52,532 nt of DNA from Saprospiraceae bacterium (lineage in GTDB: Bacteria; Bacteroidota; Bacteroidia; Chitinophagales; Saprospiraceae), in NCBI GenBank assembly GCA_015490175.1, contig WFYJ01000287.1, positions 1-52,532 of the forward strand, read 5' to 3'. The translations under genes were made by a program, and so were the position numbers. How positions within the stretch are numbered: position 1 is the stretch's first letter; every line of letters starts with the position of its first letter. The notes beneath the pieces were generated by a model. That model was not told the origin of the DNA, did not search any database, and saw only the letters and a list, made by a program, of their open reading frames with translations. Shown here in pieces: positions 10,311 through 48,365 of this stretch.

Positions 10311-10347
10311 AGGGCCATGTGCACCGCGCACATGGCCCTTGTTTCTT
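10311..10347. terminator. Bidirectional terminator between alaS and the sigma-factor operon
   Basis: AGGGCCATGTGC (10311-10322) pairs perfectly with GCACATGGCCCT (10328-10339) around a 5-base loop. TGTTTCTTT follows on the plus strand, and an A run (10302-10307) precedes, giving a T run on the minus strand. Confidence 0.85.
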
Positions 10348-10375: not shown

Positions 10376-11539
10376 TCATTCCAGGCGGGCCACGGCGATA
10401 TGGGCCGAATGGAGCACCACCTGCCGGCTGTGGCCCAACGCGTCGTACACCACCACCTTTCCAGTCAGGCTCATCTCTGTGGTCGGCATGCCCTGATCGT
10501 TGTCGAGATAAGGTTGCGCACCCGATATCCAGAGCACGGCATCGTCGGGCTGGGGACCCAGCGTGGTGGAGTAGAGCGTACCCGCATCATCCACGTACCA
10601 CACTTCGACCAACCCGACACCATCGCTGAAGGGTACCTCGTCGAACCATATCGTGTCGATGCCGGGCGTGCTCGTAAAGCGGGCCAGGCAGAAGGAAGGC
10701 TCATCACTGCTCTGTATGTCAAGCACCTCGATGCAGAGGGATGCATACACCTGCGCCAGCGTATCCTCGATGTGGACGCACTGAACGCCCTCGTCCAGTA
10801 CGATGTTGAAGGGGCCGACGAGGCCGTTGCTCCACATGAAGGCATTGCCCGGCGGGGTGCCGGGGTGCCAGCCGGCCTCCAACTGCCAGGCGCCCGAAGG
10901 CTGTTGGCTGAGCGATACCTGCAAGCCCACGCTGTCGGCCAGAGTCATCTGGGGCGATAGGCGCGTGGTGTAGGTGCTCTGGCAGCCGTTGATGTCGGTG
11001 GTCTCCAGGCTGATCTCGAGCAATTGGTTGCCCGAGGGGATCGGCAGTTCGAGCCGGGGTGTGGTGCGCACATACAGGTCTTCGTCGTTCACGATCCAGC
11101 GGTAGAGCACCGCCGGGCCGGTGGTGCGCGAGGCGGAGGCGTCGAGCCGCAAGACGGGTTGGAACTGGGGCGTGGCGGGCACACTCTCAGCGGAGGCATA
11201 CCAGGGCCCGACCCATTGCCATTCGGCGCCGGTGGCGGGCGCCGTTGGGCCATCCTTTCGGAAAACGAAGCCCAGTGCCGGCCCGCATTCCCTGTCGGGG
11301 CAGGCCAGCGGTGCGAGGGCGCCGCTGCGGCGTTCGCTGCCGCCTTCCACCCAGGCATCGGTATGCATGAACACGCTGTCGACCCCTGCAGCCAGCTCGA
11401 GCAGTACGCCTCCAATGTTTGCTTTCGCAAAAAAGCGGGGCGAGGCAGAGGTGGGCCCTTCCGGCAGTTCGACGGGTCGGCAGCCGACGATCGTCATAAG
11501 GGTTGCGCCAAGCGTCAGGATGAACGGACGAAGGGTCAT
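10376..11539 (-). CDS. Lipoprotein, last gene of the ECF sigma operon
   Basis: A 387-residue protein with a lipoprotein signal (LMTIVGC, Cys 20). The rest looks like beta-rich PKD/Ig-type extracellular modules: FQPVLRLDASASRTTGPAVL with a following YRW resembles a PKD repeat, and TTDINGCQSTYTT resembles the end of a SprB-type module. The start ATG overlaps the stop of the upstream gene by four bases (ATGA), so translation is probably coupled. It is the fourth gene after the T9SS protein, the sigma factor and the anti-sigma-like protein, and may be a surface or periplasmic partner of the regulatory pair. No enzymatic motif was recognised. A TTTGCTTTCGCAAA copy lies at 11418-11431. Confidence 0.8.
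   Translation of the reverse strand: MTLRPFILTLGATLMTIVGCRPVELPEGPTSASPRFFAKANIGGVLLELAAGVDSVFMHTDAWVEGGSERRSGALAPLACPDRECGPALGFVFRKDGPTAPATGAEWQWVGPWYASAESVPATPQFQPVLRLDASASRTTGPAVLYRWIVNDEDLYVRTTPRLELPIPSGNQLLEISLETTDINGCQSTYTTRLSPQMTLADSVGLQVSLSQQPSGAWQLEAGWHPGTPPGNAFMWSNGLVGPFNIVLDEGVQCVHIEDTLAQVYASLCIEVLDIQSSDEPSFCLARFTSTPGIDTIWFDEVPFSDGVGLVEVWYVDDAGTLYSTTLGPQPDDAVLWISGAQPYLDNDQGMPTTEMSLTGKVVVYDALGHSRQVVLHSAHIAVARLE
11418..11431 (-). repeat. GAAA-hairpin motif, class II (TTTGCGAAAGCAAA)
   Basis: Perfect 14-base hairpin word inside the lipoprotein gene, read there as FFAKAN. The same 14-mer is at 15997-16010 and 26841-26854. Confidence 0.8.
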
Positions 11540-12675
11540 TGGTCGGAGTTTTGTACGCGAAGTGATGAAGGCAGGCGAAGCCGGACACCCAGCCAGAGGC
11601 CATTCGGTGCCTGCCCGGGATCGCCATGGACGGCCCCTTGTCCGCGCAGGCCGACCTGTATCCAGGGCGTGAGGGCGTAGCCGTATTGTGCCTGCACCAG
11701 GCCGATGGCCTGCCATGGCGTGCGCGACCATCCTCGCTGCACGGTGTGCCAGCCGCCTGCGGGCGGTGCCCACTCCCATGAACGTTCGTCGAGGCGGCGC
11801 TGCTGCGCCAGCGGCACGAGAGCTCCCAGCCCCGCATACAGGCTGTGGCGGCCCCACTGGCGGCCTGCCCCCACGAAGAGCACGGTGCTGAGCTGGTTTT
11901 CTATGGTGAGACGATACTGCTTCACCGACACTCCGAAAGAATAGGCAGGCAGCGTACGCCAGGCCGGGTAGAGGTGCAGCGGCTCGTAGCGCACCAGCGC
12001 ACCTGTTGTCCATCGCCACTTGCCTGCCAGGCGCCCCTGGCGTTCGATGCCCGCCTGGATCCTGAGCCCCTGGCGCGTCCACCCGCCTTCGCCGATGAGG
12101 TGCCAGCGCAGGAATCGGCGGCCGAGCGCGGAGCGGCGGGCCTGACCCTGGAGCGTGGGAGTTGGCCGCAGCAGGTGCTGCAGCAGGGGCAGGGCCGCAA
12201 GCCGACGTGCAGACCGCGTCGTGTGGGCTTCCGCTTGTGCGCCTTCCTTTTCCGCGGGGGGCGCGGCTGGTATGGCCCGGGGGCTGCTCTGGGTCAATGC
12301 CGGCGCATGGTACCGCCGTGGGGGAGCGCCATGTGCTCGTCGTGGGGCAGGAGGCAGGTGGCCTGCCGCAGTGGCGGACAGCAGCTCTTTGTCCGATGGG
12401 GTGCTCGGGCTCGTGGGCGCCGTCGGCACCGGTATGGGCAGCGCGCCCACTGCTTGTGTGGAGGCGTCATTTGCCGAAAGGCGCAAGAGGCTCCAGCCCC
12501 ACCACACACAGATGCCTGCAGCCACGAGGCCGCCCAACCACCACCAGAGCCACAGCCTGCGCCGTCGCTTGCCGAACAGCTCGGCGGCTACTTCGTCCCA
12601 GCGCTCGGGTTCGTAGGGAAACTCGCGGTTTCCCAACTGCTCGCGGAAAAGCCTGTCTATATCGTGCTCAGCCAT
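11536..12675 (-). CDS. Membrane protein: anti-sigma-like N-terminus plus barrel-like C-terminal domain
   Basis: A 379-residue protein starting MAEHDIDRLFREQL. The first 45 residues form a short cytoplasmic acidic/helical segment ending in GKRRRR, followed by one Trp-rich membrane helix (about 46-68), a long Pro/Ala-rich linker (to about 170) and a C-terminal half of alternating strands (LSTVLFVGAGRQWG, SLYAGLGALVPL, YGYALTPWIQVGLRG) like an outer-membrane beta domain. The arrangement and its place directly after an ECF sigma gene suggest an anti-sigma factor that spans the periplasm. The ATG at 12675 overlaps the sigma gene by 8 bases; a longer start at 12708 would overlap more. No standard anti-sigma domain was recognised, so the role is inferred from context. 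Confidence 0.75.
   Translation of the reverse strand: MAEHDIDRLFREQLGNREFPYEPERWDEVAAELFGKRRRRLWLWWWLGGLVAAGICVWWGWSLLRLSANDASTQAVGALPIPVPTAPTSPSTPSDKELLSATAAGHLPPAPRRAHGAPPRRYHAPALTQSSPRAIPAAPPAEKEGAQAEAHTTRSARRLAALPLLQHLLRPTPTLQGQARRSALGRRFLRWHLIGEGGWTRQGLRIQAGIERQGRLAGKWRWTTGALVRYEPLHLYPAWRTLPAYSFGVSVKQYRLTIENQLSTVLFVGAGRQWGRHSLYAGLGALVPLAQQRRLDERSWEWAPPAGGWHTVQRGWSRTPWQAIGLVQAQYGYALTPWIQVGLRGQGAVHGDPGQAPNGLWLGVRLRLPSSLRVQNSDQ
12470..12482 (+). repeat. GAAA-hairpin motif, class I
   Basis: Exact TTTGCCGAAAGGC opposite the coding strand of the anti-sigma-like gene, where it is read as RLSAND, just after the membrane helix. Confidence 0.85.
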
Positions 12676-13219
12676 GATGCTTTTTTTTCGTGGTGGGTTG
12701 CAAACCAAGAATTTCGGCCAGTTTTTTTCGGGCTTCCATCAGATGCCAGCGCGAGGTGGCCGGACTCATGTCCAGCATCCTGGCGATCTCGGTGTGGTCG
12801 TAGCCGTCGATGGCGTACAGGTTGAACACCGTGCGCGTCATGGGCGGCAGTTGGTGCAGGGCCAGCTCGAGTCGTTCGGCTTCCATGCGATCGAGCGCCT
12901 CGTTGGGTACCGACCTGCTGCCCACATCGGCGGCCGACAGTTCGGCAAAGTGGTCGCGGCGACGACGCCACTCGTCGATCAGGTAGTTGATCGTCACTCT
13001 TTTCGTCCATGCCTCGAAGGGCACTTCCTCGCGGTACTTGTCGAGGTGCTGCACGATCTTCAGGAAGGCGCCATTGTGGGCGGCCCGCACCTCGTCCTCG
13101 CTGCGGCGGTAGCGCCGGCACAGGCCCATCACCAGGCTGAACGTCAGCCGGTGCAGGTGTTCCAGTGCGCGCCGGTCGTGGCGGCGGCAGCGGTCCAGAA
13201 GGCCTTCAGGTAGCTGCAT
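12668..13219 (-). CDS. ECF-type RNA polymerase sigma factor
   Basis: Directs RNA polymerase to a dedicated promoter set. Region 2 is visible in VPFEAWTKRVTINYLIDEWR and region 4 in LPPMTRTVFNLYAIDGY followed by DHTEIARMLDMSPATSRWHL, the helix-turn-helix that reads the -35 element. About 183 residues from the ATG at 13219 (MQLPEGLLDRCRRHD), typical for ECF factors; alternative starts are ATG 13246 and GTG 13273, which abuts the stop of the upstream gene. It is transcribed from the T9SS protein gene and overlaps the anti-sigma-like gene downstream. The usual logic would be release of sigma by the membrane partner after an envelope signal. No N-terminal regulatory domain is present. Confidence 0.93.
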   Translation of the reverse strand: MQLPEGLLDRCRRHDRRALEHLHRLTFSLVMGLCRRYRRSEDEVRAAHNGAFLKIVQHLDKYREEVPFEAWTKRVTINYLIDEWRRRRDHFAELSAADVGSRSVPNEALDRMEAERLELALHQLPPMTRTVFNLYAIDGYDHTEIARMLDMSPATSRWHLMEARKKLAEILGLQPTTKKKHHG

Positions 13220-13273
13220 GTGCTGGCCAATGGCGGCAGAGCCCATGGGAGGGCCCTGCCATGAGGTAATCAC

Positions 13274-15823
13274 TTATTGCTTCACGAAGCGCAGTGTGTG
13301 CACAAAGCCATCGGTGGCCGCCTGCAGGAAATAGATGCCTTTCGGCAAATGCTGTGCGGGCACGGTCCAGATTTGTTTGCCCGCAGGGGCAGCCATCTGC
13401 TGCTGCCACCTGAGGCGGCCCGTGGCGTCGAAGACCCGCAGCTGTACCGGGCCGGCCTGTGCCAGCGTTGCCTCCAGTCTCAACCTGCCCGAGGTGGGGT
13501 TTGGCGAAAGCCGGAGCTGGGCGACCCGCGCCACTTCGTCGGTTCCGGTAATGAAAGTGCCGTCGTCGCCCACTTCGAAGGCTACCTGGACGGTGGGCTG
13601 GTCGGGGCCGAGCGTGATCCACTGTCGGGCTTGCTCCCGGCCCGGAATTTCGAGTACCAGCTCGTAGGTGCCCCAGGGCAAGCCTTCGAAGCGGAAGTGG
13701 CCTGTGGCATCGGTAGCGCGCCATTGCAGCGGCTGGCCGGCAGCATCGTAGAGCAGCAGCGTCACTCCGGCCAGGGGGGCGTCGTGCTCTGGCTCGTCGC
13801 CCGGACGAAAGCCATCGGTAGCGCCGACGTAGCCTTCGATGGCGCCCGGCCCGTCGAGCGGCGTGGCCGCGAAGAGGTACACGTCATAGCTGTGCGATGG
13901 GCCGAAGGTCGGCACTTCGAACGTCGCTGCGTCCTGCCATTCCAGCGCATGGAAGTGATAGGTGGGCAAGAGCGTCGTGTCGTAGGGAATGACGCGCACG
14001 AGGTACAGGCCCCACGGCTGGTCGCCAAAGTCGTAGAAGGGTGCGTTCAGGGCCATGCTCAGGGCCACGGTATCGGTCCGCACGAGCGAGTCAAATTCGT
14101 TCCACTGCCACAGCTCTGCCCGGCCCGGAATGTAGATCGGCCAGCTGATGGAGTCGGCCGAGTACACCCAACCCTGTATGCCGAAGTTGATCTGGGGCAT
14201 ACCGGTGACGACGTTGTCGGTCGCAGTGCATCCGGTGGCATCGGTGATGGTGACGCTGACCTGGGCATTGCTGAGGAAAGGAATGAGCTGGGTGGTGTCG
14301 CCGGTGCTCCACAGATAAGCGAAGGGAGGTGAGCCTGCCGGGACGGCCTGCAGCCACAGCGCGCCCATGTCCTGTACCACTGCGATGTCGGCCCAGCAGT
14401 CGGGCAGCTCGAGCCAGGCGCAAGCCGTGTCGGTACAGCCGAAGAAGTCGGTGAGCACCACGCACCACTCGCCTTCCTGGTCGGCAAAAAGGTAAGCGCT
14501 CCCCTCGAATACTTCCCCATCCGGTGCGATCCATTCGAAGGTGTAGGGCGGCACGCCACCCGAGCCCATGGCCCACATCGAGGTGCCGTCCATATAGATG
14601 GTGTCGTTGACCGTCAGGCTCACGTGGCACGGCTCGGCCGGGGTCAGATCCCTGCAGGCCTCGGCCGCACAGCCCACGGCATCGGTCACGGTGACGCAAT
14701 AGATGCCGGGCGTGTCGGGGAAGATGATGTCCTCGGTCGAGCCCGTGTTCCACTGATAGCTGTAGGGCGGGAATCCGCTGGCGGCAGCAAACAGGCCATT
14801 GGTGGCGGGCGCCATCACCAGCTCGACGGTGCATGCCGCCAGGTCGATACAGTCGGTGGCCACGCAGCCATAGGATGAGGTGATGGTGACGCAGTAGCTG
14901 CTCTGGCTCGGGTCGATGGCGATCGAAGGGGTCGCGGCGCCATTGCTCCACAGGTAGGTGGTCAGGCCCGGACTGCCGCCCACCGTGGCATGGAGCCAGG
15001 TGCCGTTCTGCACCACCTCGATTTCTACCCAGCAACTGTCACTGTAGGCGCTCGGGTCGAACCACACGCAGGTGTCTGCCGTGCAGCCGGTGGCATCGGT
15101 GATGGTGAGGCAGTAGGTGCCCTGGCCATTGGGCATCAGCACGGGGCCGGTGGAGCCGTCGGACCACAGGTAGGCGACAGGCTCGGCGCCCCAGGCATTG
15201 GCGATGATGGCATCGGGCAGCACGTCGAGCTGGAGGCCGCAGTCGGTGCTGTCGGTGCCGATGGTATGGCAGGCCGTGGCCACGCACTCGATCGAGTCGG
15301 TGATGGTGACGCACCAGGTGCCTTCGCCCTGCACCGCGATGGAGGGGCTGACGTATCCGTTCGACCAGACATAGCTGAACGGCGGCGTGCCCTGCGGAAT
15401 GGCCGTGAGCGTGGTGGCCGTGCCGTCGGGTGTGGGCTGCGCTTCGATCGAGGCCGAGCACAGCGGCTGGGAGGGACAGGTGAAATCGGCGACGAGCTCG
15501 GTATGGTTGGGCCACCAGCTCAGCAATTGGAGGTTGGCGCCACCGGGGCCCCACGGACAATCCCATACCGTCACAAAGACAGTGCCCTGTGTCAGGTTTG
15601 CGGGCACTTCGATCCAGTCTTCGTAGTAGCCGTTGGCGTCGGTAGGCACTTCGTTGTAGTAGAAAAAGCCCATGAGCGAGTCGGTAAAGATGGCCACGGG
15701 CGTGCCCTCAACCGGCTCGCCGTCGTCGTAGAGCACGTGGCCCGAGACGTGGATGGTGAGGGTCTGGGCGGATGCCGCAAACAGTGTCGAGCACAGGATT
15801 AGCAGGAGTAAGGGGTATTTCAT
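13274..15823 (-). CDS. T9SS-exported protein with six SprB-like modules
   Basis: An 849-residue secreted protein. It has a signal peptide (MKYPLLLLILCSTLFAASAQ), a carboxypeptidase-regulatory-like domain (about 22-115), then six repeats of about 70 residues, each with a YxWSNG- or YLWSTG-type word and a Cys-containing end such as WCVTITDSIECVATACHT or YCVTVTDAVGCAAEACRD. A second regulatory-like/SdrD_B-type domain (AIEGYVGATDGFRPGDE) follows, and a type A T9SS sorting domain closes it (LSPNPTSGRL to HLPKGIYFLQA). It should be displayed or released at the cell surface. Being first in an operon with an ECF sigma factor is unusual for such cargo and may mean it is the sensed or regulated product. 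Confidence 0.9.
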   Translation of the reverse strand: MKYPLLLLILCSTLFAASAQTLTIHVSGHVLYDDGEPVEGTPVAIFTDSLMGFFYYNEVPTDANGYYEDWIEVPANLTQGTVFVTVWDCPWGPGGANLQLLSWWPNHTELVADFTCPSQPLCSASIEAQPTPDGTATTLTAIPQGTPPFSYVWSNGYVSPSIAVQGEGTWCVTITDSIECVATACHTIGTDSTDCGLQLDVLPDAIIANAWGAEPVAYLWSDGSTGPVLMPNGQGTYCLTITDATGCTADTCVWFDPSAYSDSCWVEIEVVQNGTWLHATVGGSPGLTTYLWSNGAATPSIAIDPSQSSYCVTITSSYGCVATDCIDLAACTVELVMAPATNGLFAAASGFPPYSYQWNTGSTEDIIFPDTPGIYCVTVTDAVGCAAEACRDLTPAEPCHVSLTVNDTIYMDGTSMWAMGSGGVPPYTFEWIAPDGEVFEGSAYLFADQEGEWCVVLTDFFGCTDTACAWLELPDCWADIAVVQDMGALWLQAVPAGSPPFAYLWSTGDTTQLIPFLSNAQVSVTITDATGCTATDNVVTGMPQINFGIQGWVYSADSISWPIYIPGRAELWQWNEFDSLVRTDTVALSMALNAPFYDFGDQPWGLYLVRVIPYDTTLLPTYHFHALEWQDAATFEVPTFGPSHSYDVYLFAATPLDGPGAIEGYVGATDGFRPGDEPEHDAPLAGVTLLLYDAAGQPLQWRATDATGHFRFEGLPWGTYELVLEIPGREQARQWITLGPDQPTVQVAFEVGDDGTFITGTDEVARVAQLRLSPNPTSGRLRLEATLAQAGPVQLRVFDATGRLRWQQQMAAPAGKQIWTVPAQHLPKGIYFLQAATDGFVHTLRFVKQ
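13337..13349 (-). repeat. GAAA-hairpin motif, class I
   Basis: Minus-strand copy within the sorting domain, read as HLPKGI. Here the protein motif LPKG could itself explain the word. Confidence 0.7.
13501..13513 (+). repeat. GAAA-hairpin motif, class III (TTTGGCGAAAGCC)
   Basis: Stem swapped to GGC/GCC with the same GAAA loop, opposite the codons for LSPN in the sorting domain. Confidence 0.6.
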
Positions 15824-15921
15824 CTGGCTGGTTTTTGATTGAAGATAAGGATGCGTGAAAAACCCTGGTTACCTGCCTTCACGGCAAAACAGACCGCTGC
15901 GTTGGGTCGGGAAGGGCATTA

Positions 15922-46298: not shown

Positions 46299-47166
46299 TC
46301 GCCTGCGCGATCTGTGGCTCCAGTTCGTCGATCTCGTATTCTACAGCAACCTCTGGATTGCTGTAGGAGCCGCTGCCATGTATGCCCAGACCATGCTCTT
46401 GCTCACCGGGCGCGTGGTCTGGACCCACGGCCTGGCATTTGTCTTCTTCGGCACGTTGAGCCTGTATGCCCTGCATCGCGTCATCGGCCTGCGCAAGGTC
46501 ATGGCTTTTGCCGACAAGGGGCGATACAAGGTCATTTACGAGCACCGCAGCCACATCGTCCTGTACGGTCTTGTGGCCATGGTAGCCGGTGCCTGGCACT
46601 TTTTTCAGCTTCCGCAAAAAATGCAACTCTGGATCCTGCCGGCCGCCCTGCTGGCAGGAGCCTACGTGCTGCCCCTTGGAAAGGGCGGCCGACGCCTGCG
46701 CGATTTTGGCGCCATCAAGATCTTCATGATTGCGCTCGTGTTTGCCTGGCTGACCGTCTGGCTGCCCGCACTCGAAGCGGGCATGCAGGGCCACATCGCC
46801 ACCTGGATCATGCTTCCCGAGCGCTTCGCCTTCCTCTTCGCCATCACCGTGCCGTTCGACATCCGCGATCGCGAGGTGGATCTGCGCAACGACGTGCGCA
46901 CGCTGCCCGTGCTGATGGGCGAGCGCACCAGCCTTTGGCTGGCCGAAGGCGCGTTGGGCCTCGTGGCCGTATGTGTGGCGCTCAATGCCCTGATTGGTTG
47001 CTACCCCGAAGGCGTCGTCATCGGTATGGCCGTATCCGTGGCCACCACCGCATGGTGGGTCTGGCTTTCGCCAAAAAAGACCCACGACTACTACTTCACC
47101 GGCCTGCTCGATGGCACCATGTTGCTGCAGTTCCTGTTGGTCCAGGCAGGATGGCATCTGTCCTGA
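46267..47166 (+). CDS. UbiA-like membrane prenyltransferase homologue with degenerate first motif
   Basis: A 299-residue membrane protein with about eight helices (LWIAVGAAAMYAQTMLL, SHIVLYGLVAMVAGAWHFFQ, WVWLSPKKTHDYYFTG). The second UbiA-type acidic motif is visible in PFDIRDREVDLRNDV, but the first, normally NDxxDxxxD, appears as LYALHRVIGLRK without its aspartates. Bacteroidota carry such divergent UbiA relatives of unknown substrate; activity is uncertain. No ATG fits, so TTG 46267, overlapping the M42 gene by 32 bases, is the best start seen. Possible last gene of the pyrE transcript. Confidence 0.75.
   Translation: MNTARASGISDRLRDLWLQFVDLVFYSNLWIAVGAAAMYAQTMLLLTGRVVWTHGLAFVFFGTLSLYALHRVIGLRKVMAFADKGRYKVIYEHRSHIVLYGLVAMVAGAWHFFQLPQKMQLWILPAALLAGAYVLPLGKGGRRLRDFGAIKIFMIALVFAWLTVWLPALEAGMQGHIATWIMLPERFAFLFAITVPFDIRDREVDLRNDVRTLPVLMGERTSLWLAEGALGLVAVCVALNALIGCYPEGVVIGMAVSVATTAWWVWLSPKKTHDYYFTGLLDGTMLLQFLLVQAGWHLS
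47062..47076 (-). repeat. GAAA-hairpin motif, class III
   Basis: TGGCTTTCGCCAAAA on the plus strand near the 3' end of the UbiA-like gene (WLSPKK). Confidence 0.55.
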
Positions 47167-47175
47167 ACTGCCCTC

Positions 47176-47206
47176 TTGCGCGTCTGTCCACGGCCGGTTA
47201 TCTTTG
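47176..47206 (+). promoter_or_regulatory. Promoter of the M43 protease gene (TTG-N20-TATCTTTG)
   Basis: TTG at 47176-47178, 20 bases, TATCTTTG at 47199-47206: a full match to the Bacteroidota consensus. The ATG at 47211 is only four bases after the box, predicting a leaderless message. Confidence 0.6.
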
Positions 47207-47210
47207 GCGT

Positions 47211-48365
47211 ATGCGTGGTGCAACGATCTTGTTTGTCATTGTCCTTCAATTCCTTGTCGGTTTGAGCTGCCATGCCCAGCGCTGCGGCTTCACGGGTGGG
47301 CGCGTGCCCGTTTCGCCCATTCAGGAACTTGTACCCGAAGACGAGATCGTCATTCCGGTGGTGGTCCACATCGTCTGGCAGCAGCCCGAGGAAAACATCC
47401 CCGACGAGCGCGTATTCTCGCAGATCGAGGCGCTCAACGAGGCTTTTGCCGCCGAACACATCCCTGAAGGGCTGGTGCCCAACCTGTTTCAGCCCTTCAT
47501 CACCGATACGGGCATCCGCTTCTGCCTGGCTACGCGCGACCCTCAGGGCAACCCCACCACCGGCATCGAGCGCCGCCACACGCCGCTCACCATTGCGCCG
47601 GGTGGCACCAAGGAACTGCATTACACCGCTCTGGGCGGCCTCGACGCCTGGGATCCCGACCGCTACCTCAACATCTGGGTGACGCGCTTTGCCGGCGGCA
47701 TCACCGGCACGGCGGCATTTCCCGAAGAGGGACCCAAAGAAGAAGATGGCGTGGAGGTGCATTACGAGTTTTTCGGAAAGGGCGCCACGCCCCCCTACGA
47801 CCGCGGCATCACCACCGTACACGAGGCAGGCCATTGGCTGGGACTCATCCATCCCTGGGGGCCGGCCGACCCCACCTGCGACGAGGACGACGGCCTCGAC
47901 GACACGCCCCTGTCTGATGTGACCTACCAGGGCGAATGCCCCTTCTGGCTGGTCTTCAGTTGCGGCACCCCCGACATGAGCATGAACTTCATGTACTACA
48001 CCGACGACGCCTGCATGGCCATGTTCACGCCGCAGCAGCGCGACCTGATGTGGGCCACCCTCAACGGCCCGCGCAGTGCGCTCAAGACCAGCGAGGGCTG
48101 TGCGTTCACGCCCGTCCATGCCGACGAAGTGGAGCGGCAGCCCCTGCGACTCTGGCCCAACCCCAACGCGGGCATCTTCTGGCTCGACGCTGCCGGCGGT
48201 ATCGAGATCGAAGTTTACGACCTGGCGGGGCGCCTTGTGGAGCGCCTTTCGGCAAATGGCGCCCGTGCGGCCGTCCGTCACGATTTGCCGCAAGGCATCT
48301 GGATGGTGGTGCTGCGCCGCGACGGACGCATCGTCGGGCGCCAGCGGATGTCAGTGGTGCGGTGA
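47211..48365 (+). CDS. Secreted M43 (cytophagalysin-type) metalloprotease with T9SS sorting domain
   Basis: Extracellular zinc endopeptidase. The 384-residue protein has a signal peptide (ATILFVIVLQFLVGLSCHAQ), a catalytic domain with HEAGHWLGLIH (H204, E205, H208, H214; HExxHxxGxxH) and a Met-turn region MSMNFMYYTDDACMAMF typical of M43 enzymes, and a type A T9SS C-terminus (LWPNPNAGIFWLD, YDLAGRLVERLSAN, DLPQGIWMVVL). The ATG at 47211 is chosen for the signal peptide and promoter. Its last 15 bases overlap, tail to tail, the convergent lipoprotein gene. A class I motif at 48244 and a GCAA variant at 48284 lie in the sorting domain. Confidence 0.93.
   Translation: MRGATILFVIVLQFLVGLSCHAQRCGFTGGRVPVSPIQELVPEDEIVIPVVVHIVWQQPEENIPDERVFSQIEALNEAFAAEHIPEGLVPNLFQPFITDTGIRFCLATRDPQGNPTTGIERRHTPLTIAPGGTKELHYTALGGLDAWDPDRYLNIWVTRFAGGITGTAAFPEEGPKEEDGVEVHYEFFGKGATPPYDRGITTVHEAGHWLGLIHPWGPADPTCDEDDGLDDTPLSDVTYQGECPFWLVFSCGTPDMSMNFMYYTDDACMAMFTPQQRDLMWATLNGPRSALKTSEGCAFTPVHADEVERQPLRLWPNPNAGIFWLDAAGGIEIEVYDLAGRLVERLSANGARAAVRHDLPQGIWMVVLRRDGRIVGRQRMSVVR
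48244..48256 (-). repeat. GAAA-hairpin motif, class I
   Basis: Minus-strand copy read as RLSANG in the protease sorting domain. Confidence 0.85.

Follow-up and report, generated by a model that had tools for sequence, protein, structure and literature searches.

Can the display of a single surface adhesin be governed by a sigma factor encoded in the adhesin's own operon, and what would the membrane partner of such a sigma factor sense? This question is raised by a locus on contig WFYJ01000287.1 (assembly GCA_015490175.1) of a Saprospiraceae bacterium, the 52,532 nucleotides of which constitute the stretch of DNA analysed here and are referred to as the window. Four reading frames on its minus strand, found at the positions given in an earlier interpretation of the same DNA (termed the original prediction below), code for an adhesin sorted by the type IX secretion system (T9SS), an extracytoplasmic function (ECF) sigma factor, a 379-residue protein resembling the dual membrane-spanning anti-sigma (Dma) proteins, and a lipoprotein (Table 1). 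The four genes form one operon, as the original prediction had proposed, and the same arrangement, termed the cassette in the following, recurs in relatives. Probably, the operon acts as a trans-envelope switch that regulates its own expression and, with it, the display of the surface adhesin.

Table 1. Features of the operon in the window, and candidate small RNAs found in related loci
Feature	Position	Strand	Basis or remark
Intrinsic terminator at operon end, 13 pairs then GACTTTTTTC	10311..10339	-	predicted
Lipoprotein, 387 aa, lipobox TIVGC (Cys20)	10376..11539	-	all-beta, SprB/PKD-like middle
Dma-like dual-membrane anti-sigma candidate, 379 aa	11536..12675	-	frame, predicted fold
10-strand outer-membrane-type beta-barrel, residues 190-369	11569..12108	-	predicted fold
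Disordered tether, residues 75-186, 17% Pro	12118..12453	-	AlphaFold2 disorder
Membrane helix, about residues 41-62	12490..12555	-	bounds by eye; within model helix 23-73
Cytoplasmic N-terminal segment, residues 1-40	12556..12675	-	D..F....L...F......W-like motif, ends RRRR
ECF sigma factor, 183 aa from ATG (201 aa if GTG 13273)	12668..13219	-	Pfam/NCBIfam, homologue start
T9SS-sorted surface adhesin, 849 aa	13274..15823	-	signal peptide, domain matches, sorting tail
T9SS type A sorting tail, residues 773-849	13277..13507	-	TIGR04183
Six SprB-like modules, about residues 122-545	14189..15460	-	outer bounds by eye from consensus
ECF-type promoter CCCAAC-N17-CGTG	15880..15906	-	3' end 57 nt from adhesin ATG
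Candidate small RNA	L060:7988-8127, L124:4641-4782, L138:4694-4848, L261:4767-4907	-	repeats, conserved blocks, strong terminator
Candidate small RNA	L136:6824-6924, L164:6713-6882	+	covariance model matches
G126 trans copies	L231:3639-3751	-	
G126 trans copies	L231:3810-3922	-	
G126 trans copies	L233:240-355	+	
G126 trans copies	L234:190-302	+	
G126 trans copies	L235:219-331	+	

The gene encoding the Dma-like protein starts within the end of the sigma gene (8-nt overlap, 12668-12675), and the start of the lipoprotein gene overlaps the stop of the Dma-like gene by 4 nt (11536-11539). These two contacts stand as originally described, whereas the abutment of the adhesin and sigma genes holds only if the sigma factor starts with GTG at 13273. 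Since a close sigma homologue in locus L015 begins at the residue equivalent to Met19, the ATG at 13219 is the likelier start; it leaves a gap of 54 nt, and in relatives 34 of 41 gaps between cargo and sigma genes measure 36-179 nt. A single promoter 5' of the operon and a single terminator 3' of it fit one transcription unit with the adhesin gene first. Scanning the window region for terminators returned four terminator-like sites, compared with 2.8 expected in shuffled sequences; the site at 10311-10339 has the longest stem of the four and is the only one located at the operon end.

A profile made from a 13-row lipoprotein alignment matched 101 of 398 family genomes at E ≤ 1e-25. In an order-wide sample it matched 16 of 298 genomes; all 16 are members of that family, and the composition of the remaining 282 is listed only in part. 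At E ≤ 1e-6, 247 of 248 genomes are matched; because the middle module of the lipoprotein resembles SprB repeats, only matches over most of its length were followed. The first set thus assembled comprises 66 loci with sigma, Dma-like and lipoprotein genes, 41 of which have a protein with a T9SS tail encoded on the same strand directly upstream (within 700 nt, our definition of a linked cargo), while 18 have none and seven lie at contig edges. Cargo is therefore present in 41 of 59 testable sets, whereas among 18 related sigma loci that lack the lipoprotein gene only one has a cargo (p = 1.2e-6 in Fisher's test, a value that is indicative, as the sets are related by descent). Since 38 of the upstream proteins scored by the tail model had also been among its seeds, the result was checked with TIGR04183, which all 41 upstream tails match at E ≤ 0.01, and with a held-out set. 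From the 84 matches to TIGR04183 in the 4.14-Mb genome of the window, 80 of them over the cut-off, the chance of a T9SS-tailed neighbour is estimated at a few per cent; the arrangement is thus much more frequent than chance would allow. Eleven loci in which no sigma gene was found were dropped (L066, L133, L139, L140, L143, L144, L147, L148, L159, L167 and L168); all but L168 have less than about 1.6 kb of contig upstream. Two odd loci were kept, namely L064, with a lipoprotein of only 213 aa, and L068, with a lipoprotein cut by the contig end.

The held-out set, for which scoring rules were fixed beforehand, consists of 39 new loci from 38 genomes; these are new loci rather than independent lineages, many of the genera having been sampled already. 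A Dma-like gene lies between sigma and lipoprotein genes in all 35 loci with a sigma factor, and cargo is encoded upstream in 22 of 34 testable sets, four loci without sigma on the stretch and one at an edge having been left out. The gene order, a survey of which the original prediction had suggested, thus recurs in both sets. In a collection less tied to the lipoprotein, the 12 best sigma matches (window included), 11 loci encode the lipoprotein and nine a cargo.

The sigma factor is identified by its Pfam domains Sigma70_r2 and Sigma70_r4_2; of the NCBIfam models, TIGR02937 (superfamily) scores above and NF058625 below its cut-off. In a tree of 83 sigma factors, which leaves out one short sequence (L137), a single clade (support 97/85) holds 64 of the 65 rows that stem from lipoprotein sets, and all 17 rows with neither lipoprotein nor cargo fall outside it. 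The remaining lipoprotein-set row, L169_108, lies outside the clade on a long branch. Locus L025, from an order-level relative (G038), shows adhesin, sigma and Dma-like genes and the same promoter, and its sigma factor is inside the clade, but a lipoprotein was not detected; it may represent a state before the lipoprotein joined the cassette.

The pairing of AAC and CGT elements is the usual signature of ECF promoters. A motif of this kind, CCAAC-N14-18-CGT, was first seen by eye upstream of cargo starts and then counted. It occurs at 29 of 35 cargo starts of the first set (shuffle mean 0.81; two on the reverse complement), in 25 of the 35 with a 17-nt spacer, at nine of 19 sigma starts of sets without cargo (0.20; none), and in four of 18 sigma loci without lipoprotein (0.51; none). 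The form with N17 was recovered in the held-out set at 16 of 18 cargo starts and 11 of 12 sigma starts of cargo-less sets, i.e., 27 of 30 together, with shuffle means of 0.11 and 0.14 and no matches on the reverse complement in either group. Across both sets, window included, CCAAC-N17-CGT is present at 61 of 84 testable operon starts; only two of 63 gaps between cargo and sigma genes contain it. The consensus over operon starts is aCCCAACC-N16-CGTgtat-n5-tgaaa. Bases outside the counted pattern are conserved as well: a C precedes it in 56 of the 61 cases, a C follows CCAAC in 52 and a G follows CGT in 48, while each letter of a downstream TGAA is kept in 42-44. A CGT box has been described for flavobacterial ECF promoters (PMC9723704). 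The sigma factor probably transcribes its own operon, beginning with the adhesin gene, and the location of the promoter at the operon start strongly implies self-regulation.

Searches of Pfam and NCBIfam with the 379-residue protein gave nothing convincing (best E values 0.02-0.05, far below cut-off), and its barrel appears only in the fold prediction. The AlphaFold2 model, based on a 22-row alignment, has a mean predicted local distance difference test score (pLDDT) of 71.5 and a predicted template modelling score of 0.51, and comprises helices at residues 5-15 and 23-73, a disordered stretch with nearly all residues at pLDDT <50, and ten strands. In the barrel, means over ten-residue blocks from 191 to 370 range from 81 to 97, except for 64-73 at 231-250. 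A second-look structural comparison placed NspA (Z 13.9, 142 residues aligned, 3.0 Å) and OmpA (Z 13.8, 131 aligned, 2.9 Å) at the top, in a tie, and the best Foldseek matches to the barrel model are OmpA entries (E about 1e-5). Among 22 relatives of the protein, nine match PF13568 and seven PF13505 at E ≤ 0.01. A single hydrophobic stretch corresponds to the one predicted transmembrane helix, with positive charges on its N-side, and the N-terminal motif is conserved; a model of the N-terminus alone matched 99 of 345 genomes of a phylum-wide sample at E ≤ 0.001. The predicted fold thus agrees with the cytoplasmic segment, single helix, Pro-rich linker and barrel-like domain described originally, the C-terminal half being modelled as a barrel rather than as a soluble, non-barrel domain. 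With one transmembrane helix, a disordered tether, a C-terminal barrel (by prediction) and an adjacent ECF sigma gene, the modelled protein has the architecture of the published Dma class. By analogy, it is likely the anti-sigma factor of the adjacent sigma factor, which its N-terminus would bind.

The adhesin consists of a signal peptide, a transthyretin-like N-terminal segment (assigned by eye), Cys-rich SprB-like modules, a CarboxypepD_reg domain and the sorting tail. The six SprB-like modules claimed previously were recovered as six [YF]xW..G cores at residues 151, 218, 290, 356, 429 and 503, though the Pfam SprB model scores just two stretches. Its C-terminal sorting domain exceeds the curated cut-off of TIGR04183 (E = 6.7e-14; 51.6 bits, cut-off 23) and also matches PF18962, identifying the protein as a T9SS type A cargo. 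The linked cargos belong to one homologous family: among the 35 of 41 that are uncut by a contig end, 35 have a Por_Secre_tail, 27 a CarboxypepD_reg and 21 a SprB domain. Another T9SS sorting tail in the window (48150-48332) ends the frame 46314-48365 on the plus strand. The model of the lipoprotein, obtained from 13 alignment rows, has a mean pLDDT of 75.8, and a fold search with it found no convincing relative (best Z 6.8; 132 residues aligned, 4.6 Å).

In the switch that we propose, the N-terminus of the Dma-like protein would hold the ECF sigma factor at the inner membrane, the predicted topology having the protein tethered across the periplasm with its barrel in the outer membrane. There, the barrel and the co-encoded lipoprotein would together constitute a sensing head, and perturbation of the head by some signal would release the sigma factor. 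Freed sigma factor would then transcribe the whole operon from CCCAAC-N17-CGTG, giving the adhesin, as the main output, followed by sigma factor, anti-sigma factor and lipoprotein.

Several observations weigh against this proposal. The exact motif is missing at 23 of the 84 operon starts, and some of the sites counted look weak, for example that of L269 in the held-out set. By itself, the short motif lacks the specificity needed to delimit a wider regulon: the genome of the window contains 37 sites of CCCAAC-N17-CGTG compared with 19 of a reversed control, and of these 37 only 15880-15906 was accepted. Surface exposure of the lipoprotein is assumed. When 41 lipoproteins were compared with 41 cargos, a specific pairing had to be rejected, the own cargo being the top match in three of 41 cases; summed scores gave a permutation p of 0.0016, which was not used because related genomes confound it. 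Finally, no cargo is encoded within 700 nt in 18 of 59 sets of the first and 12 of 34 of the held-out collection. Some of these "cargo-less" sets have a T9SS-tailed frame further upstream, at 1069 nt in L155 and at 2-6 kb in L136, L153, L160 and L164. At L145:5700-7300(+), upstream of the sigma gene, the sequence by eye resembles an adhesin tail in decay, the intact relative of which is present in L151 of the same genus, indicating that at least one set has lost its adhesin.

These cargo-less sets also bear on whether the adhesin is sensed. Conceivably, though this is a minority view, the head of barrel and lipoprotein reads the passage of the adhesin through T9SS, or its occupancy of the surface, with the activity of the sigma factor set accordingly. 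Such feedback would suit the position of the cargo as first gene behind the likely own promoter of the sigma factor and the single family to which the cargos belong, as well as the SprB/PKD-like modules common to lipoprotein and cargo; as a single query against its own genome (E ≤ 0.01), the lipoprotein finds the operon's own cargo as sole other match, although the lipoprotein profile has 12 matches in that genome at E ≤ 1e-6. The upstream position of PorA, a protein with a C-terminal sorting domain (CTD), relative to PorXY-SigP in Porphyromonas gingivalis would provide a conceptual precedent (PMC7712824). However, the pairing of lipoproteins with their own cargos is weak, and roughly one set in three is complete but for a linked cargo, retaining sigma, Dma-like and lipoprotein genes and often the promoter as well. 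The switch is thus more likely to have the linked adhesin as its output than to require it as an input, unlinked adhesins elsewhere not having been searched for; the SprB-like middle of the lipoprotein leaves room for feedback from export or occupancy. The same modules, the lipobox and the shared operon would also suit a lipoprotein that is merely co-regulated and serves as anchor or assembly partner of the adhesin, with no part in sensing. We regard this as unlikely, as the lipoprotein accompanies sigma and Dma-like genes where no cargo is linked and hence is better accounted for as part of the sensing head; that the loci were collected through the lipoprotein itself, however, biases this comparison.

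The remaining explanations concern the premises of the proposed switch. If the C-terminal half of the 379-residue protein were a soluble, lipocalin-like beta-barrel in the periplasm, the protein would not span both membranes. Sequence alone assigns the window protein to no barrel family, which would allow such a reading, but the best structural matches are outer-membrane barrels and relatives hit PF13568 and PF13505, so that we consider a soluble barrel very improbable. That the genes are unrelated neighbours, adjacent by chance, is scarcely credible: we found nothing in its favour, and it is at odds with the overlapping gene starts, with the promoter and terminator that flank the group, and with recurrence, including that in the held-out loci.

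Related principles are known from other systems. In FecI-FecR-FecA, a signal at the outer membrane reaches an ECF sigma factor via an anti-sigma factor in the inner membrane, with two proteins and a TonB-dependent receptor taking part. The cassette would share this route; it differs in that one protein brings its own barrel, and the FecR family is absent from the Pfam hits of the 22 Dma-like members at E ≤ 0.01. Closest in architecture are the Dma/Das proteins of Bacteroides thetaiotaomicron, which have an anti-sigma segment at the N-terminus, one membrane helix, a disordered tether and a barrel, and are encoded in an operon with an adjacent ECF21 sigma factor (PMC13088901). Deletion of dma2 placed the genes of the dma2 operon among the most upregulated, and the roles described there concern vesiculation and polysaccharide- or glycan-use loci (PMC13088901). 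In contrast to these operons, the cassette begins with a T9SS adhesin and ends with a dedicated lipoprotein of about 380 aa. The likeness to Dma1-3 of B. thetaiotaomicron is one of architecture and gene layout.

PorA-PorXY-SigP of P. gingivalis likewise links a CTD-bearing surface protein to an autoregulating ECF sigma factor; there, however, a two-component system is involved, genes of the T9SS machinery are controlled, and the accessible part of the paper describes no dual-membrane anti-sigma factor (PMC7712824). The numbering of porA (PGN_0123) and sigP (PGN_0274) puts the two genes a long way from each other (PMC7712824). The SM6 (CGT-box) promoters of Flavobacterium psychrophilum resemble those of the cassette in their ECF-type -10 CGT box and in having T9SS components and an ECF/anti-sigma pair as targets, but the T9SS targets named are components of the machinery, and no operon of cargo, sigma and Dma-like genes is described in the text accessible to us (PMC9723704). 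In the open-licence literature searched, which excludes most subscription papers, we found no description of an operon of adhesin, sigma, Dma-like and lipoprotein genes. The cassette links the Dma architecture to one defined surface output and has a promoter simple enough for a reporter, which makes it a tractable way to ask what an anti-sigma factor spanning two membranes senses. Through such a cassette, control of single T9SS cargos may also run independently of PorXY-SigP, and the recurrence of its layout suggests a way in which these cells could adjust their outer display.

In several adhesin-less sets, the interval from the ECF promoter to the sigma gene contains a candidate small RNA. 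In four genomes of one genus (L060, L124, L138 and L261) the segment, which reaches as far as a GC-rich terminator located 179-192 nt past the -10 box, has a CCG(A/T)TTAC-like element in four to six copies, compared with means of 0.4-0.6 in shuffled sequences. RNAalifold predicted 24 pairs for the four segments, one of them with a two-sided compensatory change and four broken in a single sequence. The covariation term is +0.31, and support for the structure thus comes mainly from conserved sequence. A covariance model built from the four loci finds L164 (identical to L200; E = 9e-4) and L136 (E = 0.0018), the next matches having E values of 0.24 and above, all of them rough; L164 and L136 are each flanked by a promoter match and the sigma gene, in sets that have no linked adhesin. 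No Rfam family reached its threshold in a scan of the candidate loci other than L164. Base pairing of the RNA with the start of its own sigma gene was inspected by eye and dismissed as not conserved (10 nt in L060, 9 in L124, 7 in L261, none in L138). One might combine these candidates with export feedback and regard the cassette as a dedicated surface-display controller, in which the head of barrel and lipoprotein reads arrival or occupancy of the adhesin and feeds back to the sigma factor, as a T9SS counterpart of flagellar export checkpoints, and in which, in adhesin-less lineages, a terminator-ended small RNA with CCG(A/T)TTAC repeats replaces the adhesin behind the promoter, the same switch driving either; as a whole, this combination appears rather improbable.

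Genome G126 has a set (L232) with sigma gene, Dma-like frame and lipoprotein gene, identified by eye, and no adhesin between promoter and sigma gene. Five further promoter copies occur in trans, each followed by a segment of 113-116 nt with the core GAAAGCAAGAAAAAA and its own terminator, the stems of which differ between loci; the sole Rfam match of these segments is far below threshold. Terminator-like elements within 260 nt behind promoter sites were found at 30 of 87 distinct sites, compared with 18.8% of random places, so that the terminator scan alone is weak evidence. The longer promoter pattern was also tried as a regulon marker and abandoned, since the reversed control often matches as well; the pattern itself matched 51 of 150 family genomes. 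Genes behind the promoter at 20 non-cassette loci include, as judged by eye, T9SS-like proteins and lipoproteins, some of the sites being inside genes; L245 and L250 may represent parts of split cassettes. In L128 (G060), two tandem T9SS-tailed genes precede the sigma gene, and promoter matches at G060:C201:10537 and 13115 apparently provide one promoter for each.

Regarding the surroundings of the cassette, an SMC-like gene is its neighbour in the window and in L015, and an opposite-strand gene resembling the RarA ATPase lies near it in L022, L023, L060, L062 and L064 (names by eye). With such neighbours, its setting looks chromosomal rather than mobile.

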